From: Pseudomonadales bacterium
GTDB taxonomy: Bacteria > Pseudomonadota > Gammaproteobacteria > Pseudomonadales > Pseudohongiellaceae
DNA: 32,486 bases
Direction: 5' to 3'
Assembly (NCBI GenBank): GCA_023257855.1
Contig: JALRBG010000142.1
Coordinates: 1 to 32,486 of the forward strand
Shown piece by piece: positions 2,542 to 19,384 of the stretch. Below the pieces are notes generated by a model. It had not been told where the DNA came from. It did not search any database and saw only the letters and a list, made by a program, of their open reading frames with translations. Position numbers and translations under genes: made by a program. Within the stretch, counting starts at the first letter, position 1. Every line of letters begins with the position of its first letter.

Positions 2542-3774
2542 ATGGCAATGCCGTTGAAAATGACGTTTGGAAAGTCGCAAAAAGCCAAGTTAAACATCCG
2601 GTCCACCCTCACCCAAGGTTCGCTCACCAACAGACAGGGCGCTGGTTCCTTGCGCACCATTTTAGTGCTTGGCCTGGCGACAGCCGTCCTGGCGGGATGC
2701 CAGACCTCGTCCAGCTCCTCGTCATCGAGCAGTATGCCGAGCATGCCGAGCCCGTCCAGTTCGCCCAGCTCGCCAAGCGCCCCGAGCATGCCCAGCACCT
2801 CGTCGTCCAGCATGCCCAGTTCATCGCCCAGCATGCCGAGTACATCGTCCTCCAGTTCATCCGGGTCGCCCAGCTTCCCGACGGCCAGCTCGTCCAGCAG
2901 CTCATCGCGGTCCAGCAGTGCTTCCAGCTCGTCCAGCAGCTCATCCAGCCAGTCGCAGCCGGGCCAGCAATCCAGCCAGCAGGGCGGGCAGCAGTCCAGC
3001 CAGCAATCCGGCCAGACTGCCTCCACATCCGGCGGGTTCGAGTCTTCCCCGCAGTCCGGCACTGATGGCCAGAGCAGCGGCAATATCGGTTTCGAGAATG
3101 CCGGCAGCACCGGCACGGATGGCAGTACCGCGCAGAACGGCACCCAGGCCGGCAGCCAGAGCAATGGCGGATCCGACCAGGCCGGCGGCCAGAACAGCGG
3201 CGGTTTTGACACCGCTGGCAACAACAATGGCGGTGGTCAGAGCAACGGCAGCTTCGAGGGTTCCCAGACTGCGGGCCAGGGCAATGGCTCCGGCGACGAC
3301 CCCTTCGCCGACCTGTCCGACGGTCGTGGCCAGGTCATGACCGCCTCGGAACGACGGGCGGCCCTGGATGCGCGCCTGGATGAAGGCTTCGCCGAATTCG
3401 ACGGCATGATCCTTGGAGAACGCGAGCGCGTACAAGCCCAGGCCGATGATGCCGGCAGCGGCGTCATGTCCGGCGGCGGCAGTGGTACAGGTAATGGCGG
3501 GGAAGTCGGCCAGCCCGGTGGCCCACTGGTTATCGCCTCGGGCCCGCAGACACGCGGTGGTGGCATCATCGTGCCACCGACAGCCACCGGCCGCCAGGGA
3601 GATTTCGAGACTACCCAGGAAGAAAGCTTCCCGGTTCCGGACGACATACCGCCGGACGCCAACGACGACGTGGTGGCGCGCCAGTTGCGCGAAGCCGCCA
3701 TGCGTGAACCCGACCCCGAATTGCGGGAAAAGCTGTGGGATGAATACCGCGCCTATACGGGAATCGGCCAGTAA
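2542..3774 (+). CDS. Ser/Gly/Gln-rich outer-membrane lipoprotein, first gene of the envelope cluster
   Basis: A 410-residue protein of no known family that I can name. After a basic N-terminus there is a hydrophobic segment (residues 38-52) ending in the lipobox VLAGC (Cys53), so it should be a lipoprotein; the +2 residue is Gln, not Asp, which favours the outer membrane. Residues 56-150 are almost pure Ser with Pro, Met and Ala in degenerate SMPS/SSPS repeats; residues 140-260 are rich in Gln, Gly, Asn and Ser; both should be disordered. A more ordered acidic C-terminus (about 360-410, with DDIPPDANDDVVARQLREAA and a LREKLWDEYRAY helix) looks like the functional part. ATG 2542 follows two Shine-Dalgarno candidates; Met at 2548 is an alternative. 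It leads the co-directional cluster, suggesting a flexible tether reaching from the outer membrane into the periplasm. Confidence 0.8.
   Translation: MAMPLKMTFGKSQKAKLNIRSTLTQGSLTNRQGAGSLRTILVLGLATAVLAGCQTSSSSSSSSSMPSMPSPSSSPSSPSAPSMPSTSSSSMPSSSPSMPSTSSSSSSGSPSFPTASSSSSSSRSSSASSSSSSSSSQSQPGQQSSQQGGQQSSQQSGQTASTSGGFESSPQSGTDGQSSGNIGFENAGSTGTDGSTAQNGTQAGSQSNGGSDQAGGQNSGGFDTAGNNNGGGQSNGSFEGSQTAGQGNGSGDDPFADLSDGRGQVMTASERRAALDARLDEGFAEFDGMILGERERVQAQADDAGSGVMSGGGSGTGNGGEVGQPGGPLVIASGPQTRGGGIIVPPTATGRQGDFETTQEESFPVPDDIPPDANDDVVARQLREAAMREPDPELREKLWDEYRAYTGIGQ
2704..2965 (+). repeat. low-complexity Ser-codon repeat tract inside the lipoprotein gene
   Basis: Degenerate short repeats built on TCC AGC, TCG and AGC ATG CC(C/G) units encode the poly-Ser/Pro/Met tract. 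Both TCN and AGC serine codons are mixed, so the tract is maintained at protein level rather than being a recent slippage product. It creates long spurious open frames on both strands. Confidence 0.75.
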
Positions 3775-3828
3775 GTAATCTCCAGGCCGGTCCGGTTAAA
3801 GAGAGGAACTGAAAACAGGCAATTGAAC

Positions 3829-5022
3829 ATGTACAGACTGTATCGCTACCTGCTCATACTCACACTGCTCACTGGTGCAGCCGGCTGTGCCACACAGACG
3901 GTCAAAAGCACGACCTTCACGCCCATTGTGGAGGACAGCGCGCCGATTGTGGAAGAACAACTCCTGGATATCGGCATCGGCATTTTCCAGCCCGGCCTGG
4001 ATGATGTCCCCCGCAACCGCGAAGAGCTGACCTTCTCCGACGTGCGCATGGCGGAAACCTATTTCGCCTCCTACCAGCTGGCGCAGGCGCTGCAAAACAG
4101 CGGCAACTGGGGCGTGGTACGAGTGGTGCCCGGCAGGCTGGAAAGTGTCGACCTCGCCATCACCGGTACCATCCTGCAGTCTGACGGCGAGACCATGCGC
4201 GTGCAGGTACATGTCCAGGATTCCACCGGCATGACCTGGATCGACAAGGAATACGAGGAAGTCGTCAGCAAGTACAGCTATGACCCGCGTATGCGTCGCA
4301 GCGAGGACGCCTTCCAGGGCCTGTTCAACAAGATCGCCAATGACCTGCTTGCCTACAAGCAGCGCAACATCAGCGCGGCTGACGCCGTCAATATCAGGAC
4401 GGTTTCGAAGATCCAGTTTGCCCGCGATTTCGCCCCCCAGGTGTTCGATGAATACCTGGCGGAAAACCGCAATGGCATCCTCGAAGTGAAGCGCCTGCCC
4501 GCCCAGAATGACCCCATCCTGAACCGGATTGAAAACATACGCGAACGCGACTTCCTCTACGTTGACGCCCTGCAGGACTACTACTCCAATTTCGTCAGGC
4601 AGATGGAAGTGCCATACACCGAGTTTCGTCGCATGAGTTACGACGAGGTCATGAAAATGGACCGGTTGGCAGCTGATGCACGCCGCAACATGATCATGGG
4701 TGTCGCCGCCATCATTGGTGGTCTCGCCGCCACCCAGAGCAACAATGCCGCAGCGTATTATTCCTCGCCGGTCATACTGGCCAGCGGCGGCTGGCTGATC
4801 AAGGACGCCTTCGATAAGGGCGATGAGCGCGCCTTGCATGTCGAGGCGCTCGCCGAACTCGGCAACTCGCTGGAAATGGAACTTGCCCCGCAGACCATCG
4901 AACTTGAAGAGCGCACCATCACGTTGTCCGGTTCTGTTGAAGCACAGTATGAACAGTGGCGTGAAATCCTTGCCGATATCTATGCCAACGAAACCGGGGA
5001 GGCAACCAGCTCCGAGCAGTAG
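3829..5022 (+). CDS. predicted outer-membrane lipoprotein with CsgG/TolB-N-like region
   Basis: A 397-residue protein starting at ATG 3829, nine bases after an ACAGG; the TTG at 3823 is less likely. The signal sequence ends in LTGAAGC with Cys20, and Ala at +2 predicts outer-membrane sorting. Residues about 35-130 (AETYFASYQLAQALQNSG, then VDLAITGTILQSDGETM) have the pattern of CsgG/TolB-N-type lipoprotein domains: an early helix followed by strands that test a parameter. A charged helical middle follows. Near residues 288-330 a Gly/Ala-rich hydrophobic stretch (MIMGVAAIIGGLAATQS...) could be an amphipathic or membrane-inserting hairpin. The C-terminal 60 residues are acidic and helical. It lies 54 bases after the Ser-rich lipoprotein gene. 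The CsgG resemblance is my inference from pattern; pore formation is not shown. Confidence 0.75.
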   Translation: MYRLYRYLLILTLLTGAAGCATQTVKSTTFTPIVEDSAPIVEEQLLDIGIGIFQPGLDDVPRNREELTFSDVRMAETYFASYQLAQALQNSGNWGVVRVVPGRLESVDLAITGTILQSDGETMRVQVHVQDSTGMTWIDKEYEEVVSKYSYDPRMRRSEDAFQGLFNKIANDLLAYKQRNISAADAVNIRTVSKIQFARDFAPQVFDEYLAENRNGILEVKRLPAQNDPILNRIENIRERDFLYVDALQDYYSNFVRQMEVPYTEFRRMSYDEVMKMDRLAADARRNMIMGVAAIIGGLAATQSNNAAAYYSSPVILASGGWLIKDAFDKGDERALHVEALAELGNSLEMELAPQTIELEERTITLSGSVEAQYEQWREILADIYANETGEATSSEQ

Positions 5023-5068
5023 TGATGAAAAGGCCCCAGGCTAATTCATTGATCGCGAGCAGCAAGCC

Positions 5069-6625
5069 ATGGCTGATTCAGATTTCGACAACATTACTCC
5101 TGCCGATCTCAACCTGAGCGGCAAGAAGCCCCCGACCGATGCTGTCCCCGAACCCGGCACGCCAACCCTTGGTGTTGCAGAGATCGAACGCAGCGATGAG
5201 GAAAAAAAACGCCAGTCGCGCATCCTGACCGGCATTTTCTTTTTACTGCTTGTCCTGGTCGGCGGCGTGATTTTCATTCTGCCCAATTTCGTTTCACCGC
5301 CTGACCCTGCTGCCAGTCGCGTCGTTGTCGTCGACACGCGTTCAGACACTGCCGCCCCGGCAGGCCAGGTGTCTCCCTTCGAGGAAGCCCAGAAACTCCG
5401 CCAGCGTGAAGCGGCGCAAACTGTCCTCGCCGAACTGCTCGATCTCCAGGAATCCCTGGAAGACAAAGAAGCAGAAACCTGGGCGGAGGAACGTTTCGCT
5501 CGCGTTTTCGATCTTGCCGCGCAGGGCGACACCGCTTATCGCGAGCAGGACTTTATCGAAGCCAGGGATTTCTACCAGCAGGGACTGGATATCCTGCAGG
5601 CACTGGATAACGACCTGCCCAACGTCTTTGCGCGCTACATGGCCACAGGCGAACAGGCCATACTGGATGGCGACCCCGAACTCGCCGAGACATCTTTCAA
5701 CATCGCCGTACTGATCAGTCCCGACAGCGAAGAAGCTGTGTCCGGCTATGACCGCTCACAGATCCTGGCAGAAGTGCTCGCGATCATCGAGCAAGGCGAA
5801 GCCCTGCATGAGGCCGACCAGTTCGAGCAGGCGCGCGAGTTCTATCGCCAGGCGCTGGCGCGTGATTCAGAGCATGTCGGTGCCGCCGCCATGCTCAGAC
5901 AGGTCAACCAGGATATCCTCGACCGTGATTTTTCCGCGGCCATGTCCCGCGGGTTTGCGGCCCTGGCCAGCAACGACCCGGAGCAGGCCGAAACCGCATT
6001 CCGGCAGGCGCTTGCCCTCAAGCCGCAAGCACCGGAAGCGAATGCCGCGCTTGAGCAGACTACCGGCCAGATGACGCTCAGCGCCATCAACATCCACCTC
6101 GATGCCGCCCGCGACCTGGTGACACAGGAGCAGTGGAAACAGGCCCTGGTCGAATACGATGCGGCGCTGGCCATCGACCCCAACCTGGTGAGCGCGCGGG
6201 AAAACCGCAGCGAGGCCAACAGCCGCAGCAACCTGGACAATTACCTCGAAACGATCAACAACAATCCCCTCAGGCTGGCGGAAAATGCCGTTTACCAGCA
6301 GGCCGTCGGCATTTACAACGAGGCATTGAAGATCAGCGGTGACTGGCCGCGCCTCGACGGACAACTGCGCACCCTGCGCAATTTCCTGGAACGGGCCACC
6401 GAACCTGTCACCGTCCATCTGCAATCCGACGGACTCACCCGCGTCACCGTGTACCAGGTGGGTGAACTCGGCCAGTTCACCAACCAGACCCTGGACCTGA
6501 CTCCCGGCACCTACGTGGCTGTCGGTATCCGGGCCGGATACCGGGATGTCCGCGAGGAATTTACCGTGGGTTTTGACGGACAGTCTCCCGTCATTACGGT
6601 CCAGTGTATGGAAGAAGTCCTGTAG
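5069..6625 (+). CDS. inner-membrane-anchored TPR protein with PEGA-like C-terminus
   Basis: 518 residues with an acidic cytoplasmic tail (1-50), one transmembrane helix (about 52-72, ILTGIFFLLLVLVGGVIFIL) preceded by the basic stretch EKKRQSR, then a long periplasmic part. Several TPR-like helix pairs follow: around 146-178 (GDTAYREQDFIEARDFYQQG), 230-270 (ALHEADQFEQAREFYRQAL), 292-325 (DPEQAETAFRQALALKP) and 343-376 (WKQALVEYDAALAIDP). The last 45 residues (LTPGTYVAVGIRAGYRDVRE) resemble a PEGA-type beta module like those in the next gene. The positive-inside rule puts the TPRs in the periplasm. It is 46 bases after the preceding lipoprotein gene and 35 before the PEGA/SUMF1 gene, so all are probably co-transcribed. 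Likely role: a periplasmic scaffold of the same complex. Confidence 0.8.
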   Translation: MADSDFDNITPADLNLSGKKPPTDAVPEPGTPTLGVAEIERSDEEKKRQSRILTGIFFLLLVLVGGVIFILPNFVSPPDPAASRVVVVDTRSDTAAPAGQVSPFEEAQKLRQREAAQTVLAELLDLQESLEDKEAETWAEERFARVFDLAAQGDTAYREQDFIEARDFYQQGLDILQALDNDLPNVFARYMATGEQAILDGDPELAETSFNIAVLISPDSEEAVSGYDRSQILAEVLAIIEQGEALHEADQFEQAREFYRQALARDSEHVGAAAMLRQVNQDILDRDFSAAMSRGFAALASNDPEQAETAFRQALALKPQAPEANAALEQTTGQMTLSAINIHLDAARDLVTQEQWKQALVEYDAALAIDPNLVSARENRSEANSRSNLDNYLETINNNPLRLAENAVYQQAVGIYNEALKISGDWPRLDGQLRTLRNFLERATEPVTVHLQSDGLTRVTVYQVGELGQFTNQTLDLTPGTYVAVGIRAGYRDVREEFTVGFDGQSPVITVQCMEEVL

Positions 6626-6660
6626 GCAAGGCCACAGGCACACCGGCATCAGGAAACGGC

Positions 6661-8751
6661 ATGGCTGACGAGAAGTTGAATTCACCCGCATCGGGCAACG
6701 GAGGTTTTGACGACCCCATTGCCCCGATTGATTTCACGCCGATCGATGCCGGCGCCCGCAAGCGGAAGCTGAAACTCAGCCCCGTCAAGATCGTGGTGTC
6801 GGTTGTGTTGCTGATTTTTGCCGGTGCCGCCTGGTTCGTGCTTTCCGCACGCTCCGTTTTCCTGGATGTGACACCTGGCACCAGCATGATCAGTGTCAAC
6901 CATCCCATGGCCATCAAGATCGGTCCCCGTTATCTCGTCCTCGAAGGCGACCTGCCCATAATCGTGACTGCCGAAGGTTATTATGAACTCGATACAGTAC
7001 TCACCGTTTCCGACCAACAGGCGCAGACCTTCGTCATCGACATGCAGCCGCTGCCGGGTTTCCTGTCAGTGACCGCGGGTGACCTGGCCGGTGCGACAGT
7101 GCTGGTCGATGGTCTCGAAGCCGGTGTGACGCCAATGACCGATTTCGAACTGGCATATGGCACGCACACCCTTACGGTGACCCTCGACCGCTATGAGCCG
7201 GTGGAAACCACCGTATACATGGAGGGTCGGCAAACCCGCCAGGGTCTGGATGTTGAGCTGCTGCCCGCCTGGGCGAACGTGAGTTTTGCCACGCAGCCGG
7301 CTGGCGCCACAGTCACCATCGATGGTGAGGACCGCGGCATCACGCCCCTGGTGGCGGAAATTCTCGAAGGTGATCACGAGATCCTGGTCAAGCTGGCCTC
7401 GCACAAGGCGTGGACCGACGACATCGAAGTGATCGCAAGGCAGGACTTCAGCCTGCCGCTGATCACGCTGGAACAGGCCGACGGCCTGGTGCTGCTGCAG
7501 TCCACCCCGAGCAATGCCAATGTCACGCTCGATGGCAGCTTCCAGGGCCAGACCCCGCTGGAGATAACCGTACCGCCGGGGCGCTCGCACCAGCTGACCT
7601 TTTTCCTCAACGGTTACGAATCCGCTACCCGCGCAATCACGACCCGTCCCGAAGAGGAAGCCTCCCTGCACGTCACCCTGCAGCCGATCCTTAACTCCGT
7701 CGAAATCAGCGCGGTGCCCGCCGATGCCGAGCTGTATATCAACGGCGAATACATGGGCAATGCCAACCAGACGGTGGAGCTGCTGGCGGCCACACAGGTG
7801 ATCGCCATCCGCCGTGAAGGCTATGTCGATTTCGAAACCGAATTCACTTCGCGCCCGGGACTCGAGCAAAAACTGGAAGTCACGCTGAAGACCCTGGAGC
7901 AGCAGCGCCTGGAAGACATCAAGCCGTTCATTACCAACGCCGCCGGACAGAACATGAAACTGGTCTACCCGGGGACATTCGAAATGGGCGCATCACGCCG
8001 GGAGCCGGGCAGGCAGGCCAACGAGGTCCTGCGCAACGTCACCCTGACACGGCCGTACTACCTGTCACTGATGGAGGTCACCAATGCCCAGTTCGCCCGT
8101 TTCGACAGCGAACATTCCTCCGGCGTGGTGGAAGGGCGCACACTCAGCAACAACAACCAGCCGGTCGTGCGCATCACCTGGGAACAGGCCGCCCGTTTCT
8201 GCAACTGGCTCAGCGCCCAGGAGAACCTGCCGCCTTTCTATAATGTCGAAGGCGATCGGGTTACCGGTTTCAATCCGTCCAGCACTGGTTACCGCCTGCC
8301 CACCGAGGCGGAGTGGGCCTGGTCTGCACGCGTCAACGGCAGCCCCGACAACCTGCTGAAATTTCCCTGGGGTGAAACACTGCCGCCGCCGGCCAACCAG
8401 GGCAACTACGCGGACATCTCCGCCGGAATTTTCCTGGGCAGGATCATCGCCGATTACAATGACGGTTATCTGGGTACCGCGCCGGTCGGCTCTTTTGCGC
8501 CGAATCCCAACGGCTTCTTTGATATGGGCGGGAACGTCGCGGAATGGGTGCACGACTTTTATGGCTCCACCGGCCAGGTCGGCGCCTCCGTGGAAACCGA
8601 TCCCATGGGACCGACCACCGGCACCTACCATGTCGTGCGCGGCTCCAGCTGGGCCCACGGCACCATCACGGAACTGCGGCTTTCCTACCGCGATTACAGC
8701 AATGAAACCCGTGACGACGTGGGTTTCAGGGTAGCCCGCTACCTGGAATGA
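6661..8751 (+). CDS. inner-membrane-anchored PEGA-repeat protein with SUMF1/FGE-like domain
   Basis: 696 residues. ATG 6661 is chosen because AGGA lies 6 bases upstream; the open frame extends to 6604 but that part overlaps the previous gene. Order: cytoplasmic tail (1-41), basic RKRKLKLS, TM helix (43-63), then at least three or four PEGA-type beta repeats between about 130 and 410 (for example ATVTIDGEDRGITPL, ANVTLDGSFQGQTPLEI, AELYINGEYMGN), and a SUMF1/formylglycine-generating-enzyme-like domain from about 430 to 696 with YRLPTEAEWAWSAR (544-557), GGNVAEWVHDFYG (623-635), VVRGSSWAHG (658-667) and VGFRVAR at the end. The copper-binding Cys pair of true FGE is missing: the region between GSSW and GFRVAR has no Cys. 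It is therefore probably a binding domain rather than a sulfatase-activating enzyme. It should be periplasmic and part of the envelope complex. Confidence 0.88.
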   Translation: MADEKLNSPASGNGGFDDPIAPIDFTPIDAGARKRKLKLSPVKIVVSVVLLIFAGAAWFVLSARSVFLDVTPGTSMISVNHPMAIKIGPRYLVLEGDLPIIVTAEGYYELDTVLTVSDQQAQTFVIDMQPLPGFLSVTAGDLAGATVLVDGLEAGVTPMTDFELAYGTHTLTVTLDRYEPVETTVYMEGRQTRQGLDVELLPAWANVSFATQPAGATVTIDGEDRGITPLVAEILEGDHEILVKLASHKAWTDDIEVIARQDFSLPLITLEQADGLVLLQSTPSNANVTLDGSFQGQTPLEITVPPGRSHQLTFFLNGYESATRAITTRPEEEASLHVTLQPILNSVEISAVPADAELYINGEYMGNANQTVELLAATQVIAIRREGYVDFETEFTSRPGLEQKLEVTLKTLEQQRLEDIKPFITNAAGQNMKLVYPGTFEMGASRREPGRQANEVLRNVTLTRPYYLSLMEVTNAQFARFDSEHSSGVVEGRTLSNNNQPVVRITWEQAARFCNWLSAQENLPPFYNVEGDRVTGFNPSSTGYRLPTEAEWAWSARVNGSPDNLLKFPWGETLPPPANQGNYADISAGIFLGRIIADYNDGYLGTAPVGSFAPNPNGFFDMGGNVAEWVHDFYGSTGQVGASVETDPMGPTTGTYHVVRGSSWAHGTITELRLSYRDYSNETRDDVGFRVARYLE

Positions 8752-8752
8752 G

Positions 8753-9004
8753 ATGATGAAACCGTTTGCCAGCATACTCGCGACCTGGCTGTTGGCGTCC
8801 CTGCCCCTGCTGGCTGCCGAGGATGACAGCAGCGAAGGTACTGCAGCGGAACCGGAACAGCCGGCAGCAGTCACCGGGACAGAAGCGCCGGACCCGGACA
8901 GCGGGCTGACACCGCCGCCAAGCGAAGATCCGGCGAGCGAGGATTTTGTTCCCAGCATTCGTATCACCGAGGATTTGCCCGTGGCGTTCCCGGTGGACAT
9001 CTGA
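8753..9004 (+). CDS. small exported protein of unknown function
   Basis: 83 residues, beginning two bases after the stop of the PEGA/SUMF1 gene (ATG 8753 or 8756). A clear signal peptide (FASILATWLLASLPLLAA) is followed by an acidic, Pro/Glu-rich, probably disordered segment and a more hydrophobic C-terminus, SIRITEDLPVAFPVDI. No Cys follows the signal, so a soluble periplasmic protein is expected. I do not recognise a family. The position between the PEGA/SUMF1 and MotA-like genes, with tight spacing, argues that it is real and works with them; the C-terminal motif may be a docking tail. Confidence 0.7.
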   Translation: MMKPFASILATWLLASLPLLAAEDDSSEGTAAEPEQPAAVTGTEAPDPDSGLTPPPSEDPASEDFVPSIRITEDLPVAFPVDI

Positions 9005-9043
9005 GGCACGCAACACAGAGCAACCCAACAACAAGGCTAGAGC

Positions 9044-9862
9044 ATGAAACAACAGGGCATCATTTCCGATTTCATTTACCAGGTCTTCGCGCTGATCATT
9101 TCGGTCATCGTGGTTCACGCGGTCTATGTCGCCGTCATTCGGCCCAGTGCCGATGCCGTGATGGAGCAGCAGGCAGCCCAGCAGGCCATCGATCCCGACT
9201 ATGTCGGTGAGCGCTCCCTGTTCGTGGTAATGAAGGACTACGAGCAGGAGACCTGTATCATCCTGATGTTCTGGGCGATGTCGATCATCGGCCTGAAGAT
9301 CATGCGCAACCGCAACGAGAACAACCTGCTGCAGCGCCGGCTGCTGAATCTCTCCGAAGGCATGAGCATCCTGCCCGAGGACGCCCGCGATTATGCGCGG
9401 CCTGTGCAGGCCCTGCCGGCCGCGGAACGCGAGTTCCTGCTGCCACGCGCCGTGCTGGCGGCATTGCAGCGTTTCGGCTCGACCCGCAGCATCACCGACG
9501 TCGCAGCAGTTATCAAGGATATCTGCAGCACGGAGGCGGAACGGCTGGAAAGCGAACTCACCATCGTGAGATACATTGCCTGGGCCATTCCCTCCATCGG
9601 CTTCCTTGGCACCGTGCGCGGTATCGGTGAAGCGCTCGGGCAGGCGCACCGTGCCGTCAGCGGCGACATCGTCGGTGTCACGGTCAGCCTGGGCGTGGCG
9701 TTCAACTCGACGTTCATCGCCCTGGTGGTCAGCATCCTCATCATGTTTTTGTTGTACCAGCTGCAGCTGATGCAGGACAGGCTGGTGCTCGACACGCAGA
9801 ATTACTGCGACAACTACCTGATCAGGCACCTGCAGGTACCGGAGAAGGATGAGCACCAGTGA
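9044..9862 (+). CDS. MotA/TolQ/ExbB-family ion channel subunit
   Basis: 272 residues with four predicted membrane helices: about 11-33, 70-87, 176-197 and 208-238, with a large cytoplasmic region (90-170) between helices 2 and 3, as in MotA rather than three-helix TolQ. The signature core is present: AIPSIGFLGTVRGIGEAL (181-198) and GVTVSLGVAFNSTFIALVVS (211-230). In ExbB/TolQ the corresponding helices line the ion path and carry two conserved Thr; Thr190 (FLGTV) and Thr223 (NSTFIAL) fit those positions. Family members form pentamers around two TolR/ExbD/MotB-type subunits and turn ion flow into motion. The partners are evidently the two TM-VWA proteins encoded downstream. The stop overlaps the next start by four bases (GTGA), implying translational coupling. 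Confidence 0.9.
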   Translation: MKQQGIISDFIYQVFALIISVIVVHAVYVAVIRPSADAVMEQQAAQQAIDPDYVGERSLFVVMKDYEQETCIILMFWAMSIIGLKIMRNRNENNLLQRRLLNLSEGMSILPEDARDYARPVQALPAAEREFLLPRAVLAALQRFGSTRSITDVAAVIKDICSTEAERLESELTIVRYIAWAIPSIGFLGTVRGIGEALGQAHRAVSGDIVGVTVSLGVAFNSTFIALVVSILIMFLLYQLQLMQDRLVLDTQNYCDNYLIRHLQVPEKDEHQ

Positions 9863-11190
9863 GTACCCATATCATCGAACTGAATGACCGCAACCTCAGG
9901 TTGCGCAGCCAGGATGATATCCTGGTGCAGAGTCCGGGCTTCGCCAACATCGCGGAGAAAAAGCCGCGCTTCGGTGAAGAGGCTCGCCGCATCGCCCGCC
10001 TGCATCCGCGCCAGACCTTCACCCAGTTCTGGTCACAGCTCAGTCTCGACCCGCTGGCAAACGCCAACGATCACTTTCGCCACCATGCCGACCTGGCTTT
10101 CGCCCATCTCAACGACATTTTTAACGACGTTGCCAGCCAGCAGGGAAAGAAGGACGAAGTGATCTTTGCGGTACCCAGCAACTACAATCGCAACCAGTTA
10201 TCGATACTGCTCGGCCTCGTGCAGTCCTGTGAATTCGATGCTGTTGGTCTCGTGGATTTGCCCCTGCTGGTCGCCGGCAATGCCGACAGCCGCGAAATGA
10301 TCGTGTACCTGGACATCCAGTTGCACCAGTCCGTGCTGACCACCTTTACCGCGGGCGATGGCAAGGTCACCAGGAACAAGGTCGTGCAGATTCCCGGTAC
10401 GGGACTGCTCGCCCTGCATGATGCCTGGGTAAACATGGTGACTGATGAGTTCATCAAGCAGAGCCGCTTCGACCCCCAGCACAATGCCGAAACTGAGCAG
10501 TACGTCTACAACCAGCTCGAGGAATGGATCGCCAAGGCGCAGCGCGACAACGAAATCCTCATGGAGATCAACAACAAGGGCTCCGTGTTCCAGGCGCGCG
10601 TGAACCGCGGCCACTTCGAACAGCGGACGCGCAACATCTTCGGCCGCATCAAGACGGAACTGGAAGGCCTGGCCGGCGGGCAATACGCCCTGCACTTACC
10701 CGATACCCAGGCCGGTTTGCCGGGAATCGACCTGTACCTGAACAACCTCCAGGCCGTGAATGAATCCATGCTGATGGAAAACTGTTTCCGGCACATGGAC
10801 CACATCAAGGGCAAACCGGGATCACTGAGTTTTGTCACCAGCCTGCCAACCAGCACAACCCCGGCCAGCAAGGGGGCCACTGCAAGTGAAAGCCACGCGC
10901 CCTCGCATGTCCTGATCAACAACAAGGCCTATGCCCTGCCGGCATTTCTGGCCTACGGCCCCGTTAACGGCAGCGCTGCCGGTGCGGGTGCCATCCAGGT
11001 TGCAGCGGCCGGCGGCAGCGGCGAGATCCGCCTGTCGCTTTCCGACCAGGGTGCGGTTCTCGACTACCAGGGCGTCGGCAGCATAGAGCTCAACGGCAGC
11101 AAGGCCGCCGCCCGCGAAACCCTCAAGCTGGGCGATGTCATCAGCCTGCCCGGATCCAATACCACCTTGCGCCTGATAAAGGTGACGTAA
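9859..11190 (+). CDS. degenerate HSP70/actin-fold protein with FHA-like C-terminus
   Basis: 443 residues, no signal or membrane helix, so cytoplasmic. It starts at GTG 9859, overlapping the channel gene stop, with AAGGAT at 9845-9850. The layout recalls HSP70-family actin-fold proteins: an N-terminal beta hairpin (IIELNDRNLRLRSQDD), a VIFAVPSNYNRNQLSILLG segment like the HSP70 VPA strand-helix (about 103-121), then EFDAVGLVDLPLLVAG and YLDIQLHQSVLTTF where HSP70 has its second phosphate motif. The Gly-rich phosphate motifs (DLGTT, DLGGGTFD) are not conserved, so ATPase activity is doubtful. The last 80 residues (GVGSIELNGSKAAARETLKL, then GDVISLPGSNTTLRL) resemble the end of an FHA domain, without its phosphothreonine-binding GR/SxxH residues visible. 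Likely role: cytoplasmic adaptor or regulator of the motor. The fold assignment is inference. Confidence 0.6.
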   Translation: MSTHIIELNDRNLRLRSQDDILVQSPGFANIAEKKPRFGEEARRIARLHPRQTFTQFWSQLSLDPLANANDHFRHHADLAFAHLNDIFNDVASQQGKKDEVIFAVPSNYNRNQLSILLGLVQSCEFDAVGLVDLPLLVAGNADSREMIVYLDIQLHQSVLTTFTAGDGKVTRNKVVQIPGTGLLALHDAWVNMVTDEFIKQSRFDPQHNAETEQYVYNQLEEWIAKAQRDNEILMEINNKGSVFQARVNRGHFEQRTRNIFGRIKTELEGLAGGQYALHLPDTQAGLPGIDLYLNNLQAVNESMLMENCFRHMDHIKGKPGSLSFVTSLPTSTTPASKGATASESHAPSHVLINNKAYALPAFLAYGPVNGSAAGAGAIQVAAAGGSGEIRLSLSDQGAVLDYQGVGSIELNGSKAAARETLKLGDVISLPGSNTTLRLIKVT

Positions 11191-12320
11191 TGGCAAATAG
11201 CCGTGCGGCCAAGCGCGAATTCAACCCCATCAGCCTGTCTTTCCTGGACGTAATGTCCTGCGGCTTCGGTGCGGTTGTACTGATCTTCCTCATCCTCGAC
11301 CACTCCACCAGCGTCAGGAACCAGGTGGACAATCCGGACCTGGCCGCCGAGATCAACCTGCTCAATGAAGAGATCAGCGACGGCGAGCAAAACCTGGTAC
11401 GCGTCCGCAACACGATTTCCGACGTGGACTTCCAGATGGTCGAGGCCCAGGGCCTGGCCCGTTCCATACAGCAGGAGATAGACAACTTCCTGGAGGAACT
11501 CGCGCAGCTGGAAAACTCCACGCTTGCCAAGGAAGAAAGCGTTGAACAGCTGAAGGCGGACATCCAGAACCTGGAAGAGGAGCTGGAAAGACTGCGTGGG
11601 GCGCAGGACTCCTTCACAGGCAACTTCATTCGCCCCTATGTCGGCGACGGCAATCGCCAGTACCTGACCGGCCTCATTCTCGGCGGCAGCCGCATCCTGG
11701 TCCTGGTGGACACTTCCGCCAGCATGCTGGATAACACCATCGTCAATATCATCCGCCGCCGCAACATGTCCGAAGACACCAAGATCAATTCACCCAAGTG
11801 GGTGGGCGTGCGCAAGATCGTCGACTGGCTGACCACCCAGCTGCCTCCGCCCAGCCAGTACCAGATCTACACTTTCAACGAGGATGTCCAGCCACTGGTT
11901 CCCGGTACCCTGGGCTCCTGGCTGGAGGTGGCCGACGAGGCCCAGCTGAACGAAGCCGTGAACAACCTGAACGCCACCGTACCGGCCAACGGCACCAACA
12001 TGGAACGGGTCTTCCAGGCCGTAGCAGCCATGAACCCCTTGCCGGACAATATCTACCTGATCACCGACGGCCTGCCGACGCTGGGTTCCATGGATAGCGG
12101 CTTTTTTAACCGCCGTGACGACGACGGCAACCAGAACACGGTATCCGGGCGTGAACGTGAAGCCATTTTCCGGACGGCCCTGGGGGAATTACCTTCGGGA
12201 ATTCCGGTCAACGTGGTATTGGCGCCGCTCGAGGGCGACCCGATGGCGGCATCACTGTACTGGAAACTGGCCGTCTCCACGGGCGGCTCGTTCCTGAGCC
12301 CGTCCCGGGACTGGCCATAG
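11190..12320 (+). CDS. TolR/ExbD-like transmembrane helix + coiled coil + VWA domain protein (copy 1)
   Basis: 376 residues; its ATG overlaps the previous stop (TAATG). Residues 13-37 (ISLSFLDVMSCGFGAVVLIF) form one membrane helix whose beginning matches the TolR/ExbD motif (P-[FL]-[IL]-D-V-[ML]); Asp20 sits where the proton-carrying Asp lies in ExbD/TolR/MotB. A long charged coiled coil follows (about 50-140), then a von Willebrand A domain (165-376) with an apparently complete metal-ion-dependent adhesion site: DTSAS (174-178), the Thr of NGTN (267-270) and ITDGLPT (291-297). Topology is N-in with a periplasmic VWA. Known family partners end in OmpA-like or short periplasmic domains, so a VWA output is unusual. 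It probably assembles with the MotA-like protein and with copy 2 as the moving axle of the motor. Confidence 0.88.
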   Translation: MANSRAAKREFNPISLSFLDVMSCGFGAVVLIFLILDHSTSVRNQVDNPDLAAEINLLNEEISDGEQNLVRVRNTISDVDFQMVEAQGLARSIQQEIDNFLEELAQLENSTLAKEESVEQLKADIQNLEEELERLRGAQDSFTGNFIRPYVGDGNRQYLTGLILGGSRILVLVDTSASMLDNTIVNIIRRRNMSEDTKINSPKWVGVRKIVDWLTTQLPPPSQYQIYTFNEDVQPLVPGTLGSWLEVADEAQLNEAVNNLNATVPANGTNMERVFQAVAAMNPLPDNIYLITDGLPTLGSMDSGFFNRRDDDGNQNTVSGREREAIFRTALGELPSGIPVNVVLAPLEGDPMAASLYWKLAVSTGGSFLSPSRDWP

Positions 12321-12370
12321 GTCAGGGAAAGAGGAAAGAAAAGCTACTTTCATTTACCTTAATGTAAACC

Positions 12371-13372
12371 ATGGCACGCAGAGAAACTGAAACATTCAAC
12401 ATTTCCTTCCTGGATGTCATGTCTTGTGGCTTCGGGGCTATCATCCTGTTGCTGATGATCACCAAGTCGTCGGCACCGACCCCGCTGGAAATATCCGATA
12501 CCCCGAGAGAGGGGAGTGTGCTGGAGCTGCAGCGCCAGCTCTTCGAGATCCGTGGTGAAACCAACATCCTCAACCGAGACCTCAATGCCAAACATGAGCA
12601 GCTGTCCCAGTACGAGGAGCGCATTGCCCGCCTGCGCCGGGAGCTGAGCACGCTCCGCGGCCAGTTCAACAGCACCAACCAGCAGTCCACCGTCGACGAA
12701 ATCCTGGAAGGCCAGCTGGCTATTGCCCGGCAGGAGCTCACCGACGAGATGCGCCGGCTGCAGGCCAACCTTGACCAGGAGCGCCTGGACGATTCCGTGG
12801 GCGGCGTACCCGTGGACAGCGAGTACATTATCTTCCTGATCGACACTTCGGGCAGTATGTTCAATTACAGCTGGTCGCGCATGCTCGAGGTCATGGTGGA
12901 CACCCTCGATATCTACCCCGAGGTCAAGGGCATCCAGGTAATGAACGACATGGGTGAATACCTGTTTTCCAGCTTTCGCGGGGACTGGATCCCGGATACC
13001 CCGGCCAGGCGCCAGGCCATCCTCCAGCGCCTCAGGACCTGGAATCCCTTCAGTAATTCCAGCCCGGTGGAAGGCATCACGGCCGCCATCCGCACGTACT
13101 ACGATCCGGGCAAGAAAATCAGCCTGTACGTGCTCGGGGACGAGTTTCCGCCCGCCAGCGGCTCGATTCGGGAAGTCATAGACACCGTGGACAGGATAAA
13201 TGTGGAAAATGCAAACGGCGACCGCCTGGTACGCATCCACGGCATCGGTTTCCCCGTATATTTCTCCCAGCCGGACCGCTACCAGGCCACCGGCGAACGC
13301 TTTGCCACCCTCATGAGGGAGCTGGCCCGCAAAAACGGCGGCACCTTCGTGGGACTGAACGATTTTTACTAG
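12371..13372 (+). CDS. TolR/ExbD-like transmembrane helix + coiled coil + VWA domain protein (copy 2)
   Basis: 333 residues, 50 bases after copy 1, with no Shine-Dalgarno close to ATG 12371 (a purine-rich stretch sits about 35 bases upstream). The N-terminus FNISFLDVMSCGFGAIILLL (9-28) is nearly the same as in copy 1, including the Asp (Asp15) and the CGFGA motif. A coiled coil covers about 48-140. The VWA domain (150-333) has a DTSGSM metal site (158-163), with LGDEF (255-259) where copy 1 has ITDG. Outside the first 30 residues the two proteins are only distantly alike, which suggests an old duplication and a heterodimer rather than redundancy. It is probably a second axle subunit of the same ion-driven complex. 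Confidence 0.87.
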   Translation: MARRETETFNISFLDVMSCGFGAIILLLMITKSSAPTPLEISDTPREGSVLELQRQLFEIRGETNILNRDLNAKHEQLSQYEERIARLRRELSTLRGQFNSTNQQSTVDEILEGQLAIARQELTDEMRRLQANLDQERLDDSVGGVPVDSEYIIFLIDTSGSMFNYSWSRMLEVMVDTLDIYPEVKGIQVMNDMGEYLFSSFRGDWIPDTPARRQAILQRLRTWNPFSNSSPVEGITAAIRTYYDPGKKISLYVLGDEFPPASGSIREVIDTVDRINVENANGDRLVRIHGIGFPVYFSQPDRYQATGERFATLMRELARKNGGTFVGLNDFY

Positions 13373-13505: not shown

Positions 13506-14159
13506 ATGATCACCAGAGTTAGCCTATCGCAATTGCCACAGGCCGCCAGGACGCTCTTCCTGCCGGTTGCCATTATTTTGCTGGTCTCCTGCTCGGCGGC
13601 CACCATCGATATCAGTGGCACCTACCCCGCCCCGCTGGTGCAGAAGCTGCCGCTGACGGTCGGGGTTTACTATGATGATGCTTTCACCAACTACAGCTTC
13701 ATCGAGATCAACGACAACACCGGCGATGACCAGTACATCATCAATTCCGGCGCCTCGCAGGTCGAACTCTTCAATACCATGCTGCCGGCGGTTTTCGAGC
13801 AGGTTGTCCACCTGGACAGCATCGACAGCGCCGCCAACTTCAACAACCTCGACGCCGTGTTTGTGCCCGCTATCGAGGAGTTCCAGGTTGGCCTGCCCCA
13901 GAAGACCCGCCTGAACGTTTACGAGATCTGGGTGAAGTACAACATGCGCCTGGCCAAGGCCAACGGCGACTACATTGCCGACTGGGTAATGACGGCTTAC
14001 GGCAAGTCGCCGGAAGAAACATTCCAGTCCGTGGATGCCGGCGTCAACGATGCCGCCAACGTTGCCCTGCGCGACCTGGCCGCCAGTTTCACCCTCGGTT
14101 TCAGCAACATCCCCGAAGTGAATGAATGGCTGCGGTCGCAGAATGCGCTCGCGGACTGA
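13506..14159 (+). CDS. predicted outer-membrane lipoprotein
   Basis: 217 residues with a strong AGGAGG ribosome binding site (13490-13495). The signal sequence ends in the lipobox LVSC (Cys29), with Ser at +2, predicting the outer membrane. The mature part (PLTVGVYYDDAFTNYSF, a central NFNNLDAVFVPAIEEFQVG, and NVYEIWVKYNMRLAKANGDY) alternates strands and helices in the way small CsgG/YajG-like lipoproteins do, ending in a long helix. I cannot name the family. It has its own likely promoter, directly after the VWA genes, and is followed by another lipoprotein, so it may be an accessory outer-membrane part of the motor system; this is inferred from position only. Confidence 0.8.
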   Translation: MITRVSLSQLPQAARTLFLPVAIILLVSCSAATIDISGTYPAPLVQKLPLTVGVYYDDAFTNYSFIEINDNTGDDQYIINSGASQVELFNTMLPAVFEQVVHLDSIDSAANFNNLDAVFVPAIEEFQVGLPQKTRLNVYEIWVKYNMRLAKANGDYIADWVMTAYGKSPEETFQSVDAGVNDAANVALRDLAASFTLGFSNIPEVNEWLRSQNALAD

Positions 14160-14298: not shown

Positions 14299-14976
14299 AT
14301 GAGTACAATCGCTACATTCAAACAACTAGTCCGTCTGGTATTCGCCCTTCCGGCAGCTGCCATAATCAGCAGTTGCACCACTACTGAAATCGACGAATTC
14401 CGGCAAAGTGCCACCACCATCGGTGAGAATGAAAGCATCGTCATTCTCGGCCGGCGCCAGAACAACAATTACGAAACCGAGGGAAGCTTTGTCGACTGTG
14501 TCGCGAACGTGGTCGCCAGCGGCCAGAACGGCATCAACGTGGTAAACGAGCAGGAATTCCTCGATGCCATGTTTCCCTTCTTCGAGCCCCGCACGGCACC
14601 CATGCGCACCGGTCACCTCGAGCAGCTCATGGCCGTCGACATCGCCGCGCAGAAAATAGAAGAATTCGGCATCGAGTACATCGTCTGGCTGGACGGCATC
14701 ACCCAGCGTTCCGACCAGTCCGGTTCCATCTCCTGCACCATCGGTCCGGGCGGCGGCGGCTGTTTCGGTTTCGGCACCTGGTCCGATGATTCCAACTTCG
14801 AGGCGGAAATCTGGGACATGGATACTCTCTCGACCGTCGGCTCTATCAGCACCGAAGCCAACGGCCAGTCGTACATGCCTGCCGTGGTAGTGCCCATCCC
14901 GCTGATCGCCAGGGTCGAAGCCAACGCCTGCAGCGGCCTGGGCAACCAGCTCAAGCAATTCATCAACGGCACCTGA
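14299..14976 (+). CDS. predicted outer-membrane lipoprotein, cysteine-containing
   Basis: 225 residues. The signal sequence ends in IISSC (Cys26), with Thr at +2, so outer-membrane sorting is expected. The mature protein begins with a segment including ESIVILGRRQNNNYET, then DCVANVV, and has a Gly/Cys-rich loop SISCTIGPGGGGCFGFGTW; four further cysteines (in DCV, SCT, GCF and ACS) may form disulfides. The alternating strand/helix pattern is compatible with a CsgG/TolB-N-like fold, but I do not recognise the family. The 139 bases upstream are AT-rich and lack a clear ribosome binding site or promoter, so the start is the best available rather than proven. Confidence 0.75.
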   Translation: MSTIATFKQLVRLVFALPAAAIISSCTTTEIDEFRQSATTIGENESIVILGRRQNNNYETEGSFVDCVANVVASGQNGINVVNEQEFLDAMFPFFEPRTAPMRTGHLEQLMAVDIAAQKIEEFGIEYIVWLDGITQRSDQSGSISCTIGPGGGGCFGFGTWSDDSNFEAEIWDMDTLSTVGSISTEANGQSYMPAVVVPIPLIARVEANACSGLGNQLKQFINGT

Positions 14977-15027: not shown

Positions 15028-16470
15028 ATGGTTAAAGCCTATCTGAACAACTTCATCAGTCTCCGCCAGCTGCTTTGTGCTGCCGGCATGGTTGCGCTTG
15101 TCACCGCCTGCGCGAGCAACCCCACCGGCGGCGCCAATTTCGTTCTCATGTCCGAAAGCACTGAGATCGAGAAAGGCCGAGAGCTGCACCAGGAAATGCT
15201 CAACCAGAACCAGGTCTACAATGACGCGGAACTGGTGGCTTACGTCAATCGCATCGGCCAGAAGATGGCGGCGATCTCCCACCGCCCGGAACTGGAATAC
15301 GTCTTCACCGTTATCGACAGCCCGGACATCAACGCCTTCGCCCTGCCGGGCGGTTTCGTTTATGTAAACCGCGGACTGCTGACCTATCTCAACTCCGAGG
15401 CGCAGCTGGCCGCCGTGCTTGGCCATGAAATAGGCCATATCACCGCCCGCCATGCCGTCCGTCAGCAAACGGCCGCCCGCTCTGCCAATGCCGCCTCCAT
15501 TGCCCTGATCTTCGCCACCGGCGTAGACCTGCGCGAAACCACCAGCCTGATCAGCGGCGCATTGATCAGCGGCTACGGCCGCGACATGGAACTGGAGGCG
15601 GACAGCCTGGGTGCGGAATACCTGTACAAGGCCGGCTATGACCCGAATGCCATGGTGGAAGTCATCGAGGTGCTGAAGAACCACGAGGATTTCATGAAGC
15701 GCACATCCAACCGCACGGCGGTTGCCTATCACGGCCTGTTCGCCTCGCATCCGCGTAATGACACCCGCCTGCAGGAAGTAGTCGGCAAGGCCGGCACGCT
15801 GTCAGCACAGCAGGTGGTGCAGAAGGACCCTGCCGAATTCCGTTCACAGATGACGGGGCTCATTGTCGGCCCGAGCCCGCAAAATGCGGCAGGTGGCGAA
15901 CAGCGCAATCGCTATTACCAGAGCCTGTTGAATTACACGCTGATATTCCCCGAAGGCTGGCTCAAGGAAGAAACGACGACAACGGTAACCGGCCTCAGCG
16001 CCGATGGCGGTAGCCGCCTGAAAGTGGAAGCACAGCGCCTGCAGAACGCCAAGGATCCCCGGCTGTTCATTCGTGAAAACCTGGGCATCGAGGACCTGCA
16101 GCGATCCGAAGCCCTGAACCAGTTCGGCCTGTCCGGGTTCACCGGCATCAATCCGGGCAGTGGTGAACGCGTTGCCGTGCTCTATTACGGTCCGCGCGCC
16201 TTTATTCTTACCGGCAGTGCGGGCGAAGGGTCTTCCGACGACCAGATCCTGGAGTCCATCCGCAGTTTCCGCCCCATCCAGCGCAACGAAACGCTCTTTG
16301 CCAACCCCGTATCGCTCTCGTATATCCAGGCGGACGGCAGGATCAAGTATGCCGACCTGGCAACGCAAACACGCTTGCCGGAACACCAGGAAGAAATGCT
16401 GCGCCTGTTGAACGGCGACTATCCCTTTGGCGAGCCCAAGGCCGGCCAGTGGGTCAAGATCGCCAACTGA
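15028..16470 (+). CDS. M48-family zinc metalloprotease lipoprotein (BepA/LoiP-like)
   Basis: 480 residues. The signal sequence ends in the lipobox LVTAC (Cys28, Ala at +2), so it is an outer-membrane lipoprotein facing the periplasm. The protease domain (about 45-270) has the zinc motif HEIGH (133-137), preceded by the usual INAFALPGGFVYVNRGLL, the third ligand Glu188 in ELEAD (188-192), and the conserved FASHPRNDTRL. In E. coli related proteases (BepA, LoiP) degrade or repair misassembled outer-membrane proteins. The C-terminal 200 residues form a separate domain ending in LRLLNGDYPFGEPKAGQ, seen in other bacterial M48 lipoproteins; TPRs like those of BepA are not evident, so the match to BepA is only to the protease domain. 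AGGAT precedes ATG 15028. It could process the lipoproteins encoded just upstream. Confidence 0.92.
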   Translation: MVKAYLNNFISLRQLLCAAGMVALVTACASNPTGGANFVLMSESTEIEKGRELHQEMLNQNQVYNDAELVAYVNRIGQKMAAISHRPELEYVFTVIDSPDINAFALPGGFVYVNRGLLTYLNSEAQLAAVLGHEIGHITARHAVRQQTAARSANAASIALIFATGVDLRETTSLISGALISGYGRDMELEADSLGAEYLYKAGYDPNAMVEVIEVLKNHEDFMKRTSNRTAVAYHGLFASHPRNDTRLQEVVGKAGTLSAQQVVQKDPAEFRSQMTGLIVGPSPQNAAGGEQRNRYYQSLLNYTLIFPEGWLKEETTTTVTGLSADGGSRLKVEAQRLQNAKDPRLFIRENLGIEDLQRSEALNQFGLSGFTGINPGSGERVAVLYYGPRAFILTGSAGEGSSDDQILESIRSFRPIQRNETLFANPVSLSYIQADGRIKYADLATQTRLPEHQEEMLRLLNGDYPFGEPKAGQWVKIAN

Positions 16471-17190: not shown

Positions 17191-17490
17191 ATGTCCAAAG
17201 TTTTTCACGAGTGCCCCCACTGCCACCAGAAGCAGATTTCCAGTTTCCAGAAACTGTTTTCCGTTTCTTTTTCCCCGGCGATCTGCCCCGTGTGCAACCA
17301 GCCGAGCAATGTGCCGATCGTTCACGGTCTTATGACCCTGACTGCCTGGATCCTTCTGACGTGGCTCTTCATCGGCCTTTCCATCATGGCAGGCATGTCT
17401 TTCTTCCTGCTGGGCACCATCCCGGCATTTATCGTCTGCGTTGACAGGTATCTCCTGAAAGCGCCACTGGTTCCCCGGGAGTTCCAATGA
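17191..17490 (+). CDS. zinc-ribbon membrane protein
   Basis: 99 residues. Two CxxC pairs, CPHC (8-11) and CPVC (32-35), form a predicted zinc ribbon at the N-terminus, followed by two hydrophobic helices (about 46-63 and 66-84) with a short turn. The zinc ribbon is probably cytoplasmic. I know no function for this arrangement. The stop overlaps the ubiX start (ATGA), so the two are translationally coupled, which is the only hint of role; UbiX itself is soluble. The Shine-Dalgarno is weak (GGGA about 11 bases upstream). Confidence 0.75.
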   Translation: MSKVFHECPHCHQKQISSFQKLFSVSFSPAICPVCNQPSNVPIVHGLMTLTAWILLTWLFIGLSIMAGMSFFLLGTIPAFIVCVDRYLLKAPLVPREFQ

Positions 17491-18065
17491 GCAAGCCCCG
17501 CATCATCGTCGGCATCAGCGGTGCATCCGGCATCGTTTACGGCATCAAGGCGCTGAAGACACTGCAGTCTCTCGGTATCGAAACCCATCTTGTCGTCACC
17601 CAGTCGGCGAAAGTGACACTGAGCCAGGAAACCTCCCTGAAGTATGCCGAGCTGGCGGATCTTGCCGACGTGAACTATGCCAACGCCGACATTGGCGCCG
17701 CCATCGCCAGCGGCAGCTTCCAGACCCTCGGCATGCTGGTGGCGCCCTGCTCCATCCGCACGCTGTCGGAAATCGCCACGGGCGTGACCTCTTCCCTGCT
17801 CAGCCGTTCAGCAGACGTGGTTCTCAAGGAGCGGCGCAGGCTGGTTCTGATGGTGCGCGAGACACCTCTGCATGCCGGCCACCTGGAAAGCATGCTCAAG
17901 GTCACGCACATGGGCGCCATCGTGAACCCCCCGGTACCTGCGTTTTACACGCAGCCGAAAAGCATCGACGGCATCGTGCAGCAAAGTGTCGGACGTGTGC
18001 TCGACCTGTTTGGCCTGGACAGTGGAATGGTAAAACGGTGGGAAGGGAACCAGCCCAGACAGTAA
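17487..18065 (+). CDS. ubiX: flavin prenyltransferase UbiX
   Basis: 192 residues. UbiX joins a dimethylallyl group to FMN to make prenylated FMN, the cofactor of the decarboxylase UbiD in ubiquinone synthesis. The N-terminal flavin-binding motif GISGASGIVYGIKAL (9-23) is intact, as are the family features APCSIRTLSEIATGVTSSLL, RADVVLKE-like SADVVLKERRRLVLMVRETP, and HLESMLKVTHMGAIVNPPVPAFY. Length is normal. ubiD is not in the window. The gene follows the zinc-ribbon gene with a 4-base overlap and ends in a strong hairpin that includes its stop codon. Confidence 0.96.
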   Translation: MSKPRIIVGISGASGIVYGIKALKTLQSLGIETHLVVTQSAKVTLSQETSLKYAELADLADVNYANADIGAAIASGSFQTLGMLVAPCSIRTLSEIATGVTSSLLSRSADVVLKERRRLVLMVRETPLHAGHLESMLKVTHMGAIVNPPVPAFYTQPKSIDGIVQQSVGRVLDLFGLDSGMVKRWEGNQPRQ

Positions 18066-18092
18066 CGAGACGCGTTGCTGCCTGGGGGTTTT
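18054..18092 (+). terminator. rho-independent-type terminator after ubiX
   Basis: A 14-position stem (18054-18067 with 18073-18086) with one A/C mismatch and one G-T pair, a 5-base AGACG loop, and a short TTTT at 18089-18092. The stem includes the ubiX stop codon. The T-run is short, so readthrough into the convergent rpmG is possible, but the stem is very stable. Confidence 0.7.
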
Positions 18093-18114
18093 GAATACGT
18101 TAAGCGTTAGCCGC

Positions 18115-18270
18115 TTACTTGATCTTGGCTTCGGTGTAGACGACGTGCTTGCGGACGACCGGATCGAATTTCTTGATTTCCATCTTTTCCGGCATGTTGC
18201 GCTTGTTCTTGTCCGTGGTATAGAAATGCCCGGTGCCTGCGCTTGAAACCAACCTGATTTTATCTCTCAT
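18115..18270 (-). CDS. rpmG: 50S ribosomal protein L33
   Basis: 51 residues read on the minus strand: [20 protein letters not shown], then [20 protein letters not shown] and a short [10 protein letters not shown] tail. This is standard proteobacterial L33 of normal length, a structural protein of the large ribosomal subunit. It is the Cys-free form (no CxxC zinc motif). A GAGG (in AAGAGGCAAAG) precedes the ATG. It lies 36 bases after rpmB, the usual rpmB-rpmG operon order. Confidence 0.97.
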
Positions 18271-18306
18271 GATCTTTGCCTCTTGATTCCAGGATTGAAC
18301 CCGGAC

Positions 18307-18543
18307 TTATACCTTGACGCCACTGGCGCGAAGATCGGCCAGTACCTGGTCGATGCCGCGCTTGTCGATTATGCGCATGCCCTTGCTGGACAGACGCAGT
18401 TTGACGAAACGATTTTCGGATTCCACCCAGAACCTGTGAGTGTGAAGGTTCGGGCAGAAACGGCGGCGGGTCCGGTTCTTGGCGTGGGATACGTTATTGC
18501 CAGTCACGGGGCGTTTGCCGGTAACCATGCATACTCTGGACAT
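18307..18543 (-). CDS. rpmB: 50S ribosomal protein L28
   Basis: 78 residues from the ATG at 18543, giving the family N-terminus [20 protein letters not shown] and continuing with [18 protein letters not shown] and a C-terminal [17 protein letters not shown]. The reading frame is open further upstream to 18627, but that part covers the promoter and does not match L28. GAGG lies just before the start. First gene of the rpmB-rpmG operon. Confidence 0.98.
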
Positions 18544-18617
18544 TGTATTGCCTCGTAATTCCCGATTTTCCGGCCGTTTGCGGCACTCGGGAAAAGTCGC
18601 TGAAAAAAAGAGGGCGT

Positions 18618-18646
18618 ATTTAAGCAAAACACTCCTTGAATTACAA
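18618..18646 (-). promoter_or_regulatory. sigma-70 promoter of rpmB-rpmG
   Basis: On the minus strand a TTGTAA -35 box (18641-18646) and a TTAAAT -10 box (18618-18623) are separated by exactly 17 bases, about 75 bases before the rpmB start. The frameshifted radC reading frame runs across this promoter, which supports the restored radC stop at 18682. Confidence 0.6.
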
Positions 18647-18681
18647 GACGATATGCGGCGAAAGCCCCAATTTCCCTGCCT

Positions 18682-19355: not shown

Positions 19356-19384
19356 TGGCGCCCCCCTTTGCCAACGCTAAGTCA

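Follow-up and report, generated by a model that had tools for sequence, protein, structure and literature searches.

Which machine is encoded by the gene cluster at positions 2542-16470 of contig JALRBG010000142.1, and what would it do for the cell? Ion motors of the 5:2 type power flagella, the Tol and Ton systems, gliding and Zorya. The window analyzed here, a stretch of 32,486 nucleotides (assembly GCA_023257855.1), comes from a marine gammaproteobacterium of the Pseudomonadales with a genome of 2.6 Mb, and its cluster of 12 genes (g1-g12) combines a channel gene of the motor type with genes for membrane-anchored von Willebrand factor A (vWA) proteins, scaffolds, lipoproteins and an HSP70-fold protein, g7. 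We consider it rather probable that the cluster specifies a trans-envelope, ion-driven 5:2 motor with vWA proteins as B subunits, framed by scaffolds and lipoproteins, with g7 as a PilM-like adaptor and a likely role in outer-membrane upkeep. We are fairly confident about the architecture of this machine; for its task, outer-membrane maintenance is the leading guess.

The conserved unit

A first-pass annotation of the window had described nine codirectional open reading frames at 2542-13372 as an ion-driven trans-envelope machine. These reading frames are present as described, with spacings of 0-55 bp or short overlaps, but the extent was set too small: the conserved unit comprises 12 collinear genes on the forward strand and reaches position 16470, with g10, g11 and g12 added. 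For comparison we took 50 complete loci of 21 kb from GTDB genomes other than that of the window, including Pseudohongiella, Halieaceae, Luminiphilus, Microbulbifer, Sessilibacter, Marinibactrum, Exilibacterium and others. Failure of the genes to co-occur had been set beforehand as a possible refutation; g6-g10 were instead found collinear and on one strand in 50/50 loci, g2-g4 in 48/50, and g11 and g12 in 49/50, so the 12-gene arrangement is far beyond chance. BLAST under-detected g1, which is of low complexity, and the short g5, and profile searches recovered both in most distant loci. A core of g1-g4, g6, g8 and g9 persists in the most distant families.

With g9 as marker gene, the cluster was detected in the genome of the window and in 35/35 other genomes sampled from its family, in 61/246 genomes of the order (29/110 genera), in 21/276 of the class and in 9/249 of a phylum sample, where seven of the nine belong to a single genus outside the class. 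It recurs in several gammaproteobacterial families. The closest relatives of the host in a GTDB scan are metagenome-assembled genomes of Gammaproteobacteria, with Pseudohongiella more distant. Plasmid and phage collections searched with g9 gave no match, so the cluster is not mobile in those collections. A weak g9 match in genome G041 was discarded because this coiled-coil protein is unrelated: it has a signal peptide and lacks both the transpore helix (TPH) and the vWA domain.

The arrangement varies in a few lineages. In one genus, g1-g4 and g5-g12 form two intact blocks far apart in the genome (L219-L221 with L035, L050, L056 and L057). In another, g6 has been relocated and inverted to a divergent position upstream of, but adjacent to, the cluster (L037, L177, L178; G012, G017) and is 43% identical to that of the window, and in another family it lies downstream of g9 (L162, G349). 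One family includes genomes that have, beside a complete cluster, another and strongly diverged one lacking g7, g5 and g10-g12 (L173, L194, L196; G265, G130, G174).

The motor core

The channel gene g6 (9044-9862) encodes, in agreement with the first-pass annotation, a MotA/TolQ/ExbB-type protein (Pfam E 1e-13) in which T190 and T223 are invariant in 122/122 sequences and align with the pore threonines of TolQ/ExbB-type proteins. Two proteins, each with a transmembrane (TM) helix, a coiled coil and a vWA domain, are encoded by g8 (11190-12320) and g9 (12371-13372). Invariance and alignment identify a transpore-helix aspartate in both: D20 of g8 (SFLDVMSCGFGA; 11247-11249) occurs in 125/125 sequences and D15 of g9 (12413-12415) in 129/129. 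The N-terminal helices of the two proteins are nearly identical (SFLDVMSCGFGA), and they correspond in position and sense to the helices of the ExbD/TolR proteins encoded in this genome (PLIDVVFLLLIFF and the like). The residues of the metal ion-dependent adhesion site (MIDAS) are likewise invariant, as D/S/S/D in 126/126 g8 sequences and as DxSxS with a second aspartate in 129/129 g9 sequences. Of the two vWA assignments made earlier, that of g8 is clear in Pfam (E 3e-7); that of g9 is weak (E 0.045 in the window; 7/12 relatives match, the best with 0.009), yet its MIDAS residues never vary.

The genomic setting of these genes is consistent with vWA proteins taking the place of the usual partner. 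The genome has five MotA/TolQ-type genes, and g6 is the only one that is not neighbored by an ExbD-family gene; each of the other four has a codirectional ExbD-family gene nearby on its contig. No ExbD-family gene is present in the window, and four are found elsewhere in the genome. Pfam finds the OmpA-like peptidoglycan-binding domain in neither g8 nor g9, which sets them apart from MotB of the flagellar stator MotAB. Searches of the PDB with the sequences of g6-g9 gave no informative match apart from coiled coils and a weak integrin I-domain match for g9.

By analogy with MotAB, ExbBD, TolQR and ZorAB, we infer that g6 and a g8:g9 dimer of B subunits form a 5:2 ion motor, and the conserved motor residues support the earlier proposal of an envelope-spanning, ion-driven machine with vWA proteins in this role. 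Five g6 subunits would form the inner-membrane channel, and one g8 and one g9 would stand in for TolR/ExbD/MotB, with their N-terminal helices and ion-carrying aspartates inside the pore. The coiled-coil stalks would bear the metal-binding vWA heads into the periplasm, and ion flow through g6 would turn or stroke the g8:g9 pair. Metal-dependent adhesion through the vWA domains, as was suggested before, is possible given the invariant MIDAS; the domains are expected in the periplasm and not at the cell surface, and any ligand is putative.

The motor core itself is not a discovery of the present analysis. In the section consulted, Williams-Jones et al. (2025; PMC12204202) describe TolQ-like genes with paired transpore-helix vWA genes, without tolR, as an uncharacterized family, predict with AF3 models a TolQ-like pentamer holding a vWA pair instead of TolR, and point to further undiscovered 5:2 ion motors. 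As described there, this class has exactly the parts of the g6-g8-g9 core, and its Idiomarina family may correspond to the cluster analyzed here. That class shares with the present cluster a TolQ-like gene beside a heterologous TM-vWA pair (here g6-(g7)-g8-g9, in 50/50 loci), the absence of tolR, exbD and motB, the TPH aspartate and the threonine ring. The same section makes no mention of g1-g5, g7, g10-g12, the tail motif or the kinase/FHA link discussed below. The view that the machine has no known counterpart therefore holds for the cluster as a whole, which was described nowhere in the literature searched (a scope outside which most subscription journals and all bioRxiv preprints fall), but not for its core. 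Apparently new are the 12 genes as a conserved unit, the identification of g7 as an HSP70-FHA protein, the motif in the tails with its co-loss with g7, and the kinase and FHA fusions.

The HSP70-fold protein g7 and the scaffold tails

Two bitopic inner-membrane scaffolds, each with a short cytoplasmic tail and a TM helix, are encoded upstream of the motor genes. The tail of g3 (5069-6625) is followed by periplasmic TPRs (Pfam E 3e-17), and that of g4 (6661-8751) by four PEGA domains (E 7e-50) and a formylglycine-generating enzyme (FGE)/SUMF1 domain (E 1e-40), all in agreement with the first-pass annotation. The catalytic cysteine pair of FGE is missing in g4 of all listed relatives. The likely start of g4 is ATG 6661 rather than 6604, the GTG from which the reading frame is open.

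The cytoplasmic protein g7 (9859-11190) had been called HSP70-like. The fold is clear from its structure and not from a sequence match: the AlphaFold2 (AF2) model (pLDDT 85) matches the nucleotide-binding domains of Ssz1/HSP70 in Foldseek (E 1e-15). The phosphate-binding motifs GIDLGTT and DLGGGT of HSP70 are not kept but replaced by IELND and DIQLHQ (the Q in 95/114 sequences), so g7 is probably a pseudo-ATPase. The first-pass annotation overlooked its C-terminal FHA-type beta domain (10906-11187), just as it did g10-g12, the scaffold-tail peptide motif and the kinase fusions of relatives.

In relatives, the tails of the scaffolds carry a short motif of the form hxPxxF, scored as [ILV].[PA]..[FY], and its presence follows that of g7. 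In the window it reads IAPIDF(TP) in g4 (6718-6735), and g3 has the similar ITPADL (5093-5110). The g4 motif was found in 101/104 loci with g7 and in 0/11 without it (Fisher p 5e-13, uncorrected), against about 7% of shuffled tails. Of the three loci that fail to match, one has a near match (IEVIDFEP), one a truncated gene and one a mis-set start. For the g3 tail the strict motif occurs in 41/104 relatives with g7 and in 0/11 without. Among 20 regions fetched once the pattern was fixed, 15/15 g4 tails from loci with g7 match and the sole intact g4 from a g7-less locus does not (0/1). On a tree of g6, g8 and g9 there are four changes in g7, and the motif follows in 3.9/4 independent pairs (p 0.125); this test took L063 and L165 as motif-less because of a mis-set start or TM helix, whereas the locus count scored the motif in both.

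The sharpest case is genome G267, in which g7 and the tail with the motif are both lost, although the other members of its genus retain them. In this genome, as in G155, G453, G373, G564, G577, G532, G407 and G504, g7 is absent genome-wide and not only from the locus. Conversely, the unlinked g4 of the split clusters still has the motif. PilM interacts with a short cytoplasmic part of PilN (PMC4471445), and from this parallel together with the co-loss we infer that g7 binds the motif in the g4 tail, which is the proposed docking site. g7 would dock there, and often on g3 too, as PilM does on PilN, and would hold or clutch the frame from the cytoplasm. Like PilM-PilN of type IV pili and the cytoplasmic part of GspL, this would be an actin/HSP70-superfamily protein holding the short tail of a bitopic scaffold; g7 differs in its HSP70-type fold with an FHA domain, in the peptide and in the lack of an assembly ATPase. 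We rejected, as a general mechanism, binding of the FHA domain to a phosphothreonine in DFTP: the T varies, and in the lineage of the window a strong motif goes with an FHA domain that has lost the residues for this contact.

Deeper lineages suggest how such a contact may once have been controlled. In three distant families (L161, L166, L180), the C-terminal FHA domain of g7 is clear (Pfam E 1e-9 to 2e-12) and bears the phosphothreonine-type signature SRxHC, and the g3 proteins of these families begin with a fused Ser/Thr kinase (Pfam E 1e-29 to 1e-41); g3 of L198 has a weaker kinase match (E 3e-10). Several deep g4 proteins, some of them in g7-less clusters, have an FHA-like N-terminus below the Pfam cut-off (E 0.005-0.03). 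In the lineage of the window g3 has no kinase, and the FHA signature of g7 has decayed, to below Pfam detection and with loss of the phosphothreonine-binding residues in the window protein. The fusions point to a machine that was ancestrally phospho-regulated, and in the deeper lineages the holding of the frame would be gated by the Ser/Thr kinase on g3 together with FHA domains on g7 and g4. As a separate observation, an extra reading frame with a Hanks-kinase-like start lies directly upstream of a kinase-bearing cluster (L166:170-1492).

The frame and the task of the machine

The remaining products would complete the frame at the outer membrane. The Ser/Gly-rich lipoprotein g1 (2542-3774) has a lipobox LAGC followed by Q (an outer-membrane-type +2 residue, judged by eye), a lipobox being present in 92/114 relatives, then a long low-complexity linker and a conserved C-terminal segment (3640-3765) whose helix motif DDD[IV]VARQ[IL]REAAxxExDPxLREKLWxEYRxY is still present in the clusters that are most distant. 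It has no match in Pfam, and its lipidated N-terminus, disordered linker and conserved helix are the layout expected of a tether. The lipoprotein g2 (3829-5022, with 3829 the probable start) has an invariant lipobox Cys20 and a long helical region behind its N-terminal domain; with modest confidence, this domain of an outer-membrane-type lipoprotein resembles PelC, TolB-N and LptE (AF2 pLDDT 70; Foldseek PelC E 6e-4, also TolB and LptE). Downstream of the motor genes follow the small lipoproteins g10 (13506-14159; 50/50 loci, lipobox in 108/121) and g11 (14299-14976; 49/50, 78/117), and g12 (15028-16470), a BepA/LoiP-like M48 metalloprotease lipoprotein (Pfam E 8e-39; 49/50). The small exported protein g5 (8753-9004) ends in a free C-terminal peptide, ISEDLxVxFPxDI (8933-9001), that is far more conserved than its remainder.

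In the machine that we propose, g3 and g4, with its dead and probably ring-forming FGE domain, would be the two bitopic scaffolds of the frame, completed at the outer membrane by g1 as a tether, the PelC/TolB-N-like g2, g10 and g11. Other proteins with a dead FGE domain, such as bacterial OCTIN, are known to build high-order assemblies in the periplasm, and fusions of PEGA with FGE are on record (PMC5915273). The vWA heads would engage or pull g3, g4, g2 and g1 and thereby act on the outer membrane. The lipoproteins, together with the M48 protease, hint at upkeep of the outer membrane, and the most likely job would be the handling of lipoproteins or outer-membrane proteins with the protease, parallel to Tol-Pal. 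That system shares the TolQ-type channel with an aspartate-helix B subunit, a TolB-N/PelC-like lipoprotein and outer-membrane lipoproteins, whereas the cluster has no TolA, no TolR periplasmic domain and no Pal/OmpA domain, and separate TolQ/TolR-type pairs are encoded at other sites of the genome.

A drive for secretion or surface motility would be a different use of the same parts. The type IX secretion system (T9SS) likewise combines a 5:2 motor and a ring of dead-FGE protein, both of which are predicted here, so that the motor, a PorK/GldK-like g4 ring and the TPR parts could power export or a surface track. In sequence, g4 is similar to PorK/GldK over its FGE portion (NCBIfam E 7e-32, short of the cut-off for the family; PDB PorK E 5e-17), and PorK is a sequence relative with solved structures. 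Many FGE structures in the PDB fit g4 equally well, however. Among the NCBIfam models of T9SS, GldK scored 111 against a cut-off of 350, and otherwise only GldJ, itself of FGE fold, matched weakly. The block has no SprA-like large outer-membrane pore, GldM, GldN or GldL; vWA proteins take the place of GldM, and g4 is bitopic with PEGA domains and not a lipoprotein like GldK. We regard this alternative as unlikely. The relatives with a kinase on g3 and FHA on g7 or g4 would also suit a signaling device that reports periplasmic peptidoglycan, Ca2+ or crowding inward through g3, FHA and g7, with ion flow as a switch and not a drive; vWA and PEGA are binding folds, and the predicted contact of g7 is with a scaffold and not obviously with the motor. 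Such a device is quite improbable, as the residues of the motor belong to the most invariant of all, whereas kinase and FHA domains are present in some lineages and absent from others, and the lineage of the window has neither the kinase nor an intact FHA domain. A Zorya-like anti-phage system has very little in its favor: ZorAB has the same predicted 5:2 motor in an operon, with a MotA-like channel and a TolR-like partner, and a weak ZorA2 score was obtained (E 0.002). The cluster encodes no ZorC/D/E-type effector, nuclease or helicase, as had been stated before, and no long ZorA tail; its B subunits are vWA proteins with large periplasmic parts of their own. Every genome sampled from the family contains the cluster, which is distributed by lineage and without matches in the plasmid and phage collections. 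A Zorya identity was therefore rejected.

Several points also weigh against the trans-envelope motor with a g7 adaptor and a role in outer-membrane upkeep. The role is read from protein types only. The naive Fisher value overstates the association of motif and g7, for which the phylogeny-corrected test offers four pairs, and the motif was defined after the first loci had been inspected, though the later set agreed. g7 can be lost while the rest remains and is thus not essential to the motor, and with the phosphothreonine residues gone from g7 in the lineage of the window, phospho-control is at best ancestral here.

Scans for promoters and terminators gave no more than in shuffled sequence. The region at 17487-31977 of the window contains ordinary housekeeping genes, by Pfam a ubiX-like flavoprotein, dfp/coaBC, a phosphomannomutase-type enzyme, an acyl-CoA ligase, argB and an slmA-type regulator, followed by yicC-, gmk- and spoT-like genes assigned by sequence only.

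A more specific version, in which a rotary machine has its frame clamped by a pseudo-ATPase HSP70-FHA "clutch" on a peptide tag, originally switched by a built-in Ser/Thr kinase, is possible but somewhat doubtful. If true, a kinase would gate the engagement of a 5:2 motor that has vWA arms, and the machine would represent a new trans-envelope class. With the cluster described here, one predicted motor family gains a full and stable part list in the cultivable genera Microbulbifer, Pseudohongiella, Pseudohalioglobus and Seongchinamella, and a cytoplasmic adaptor with a short candidate binding motif, together with natural deletion lines, makes this family of predicted genes directly testable.

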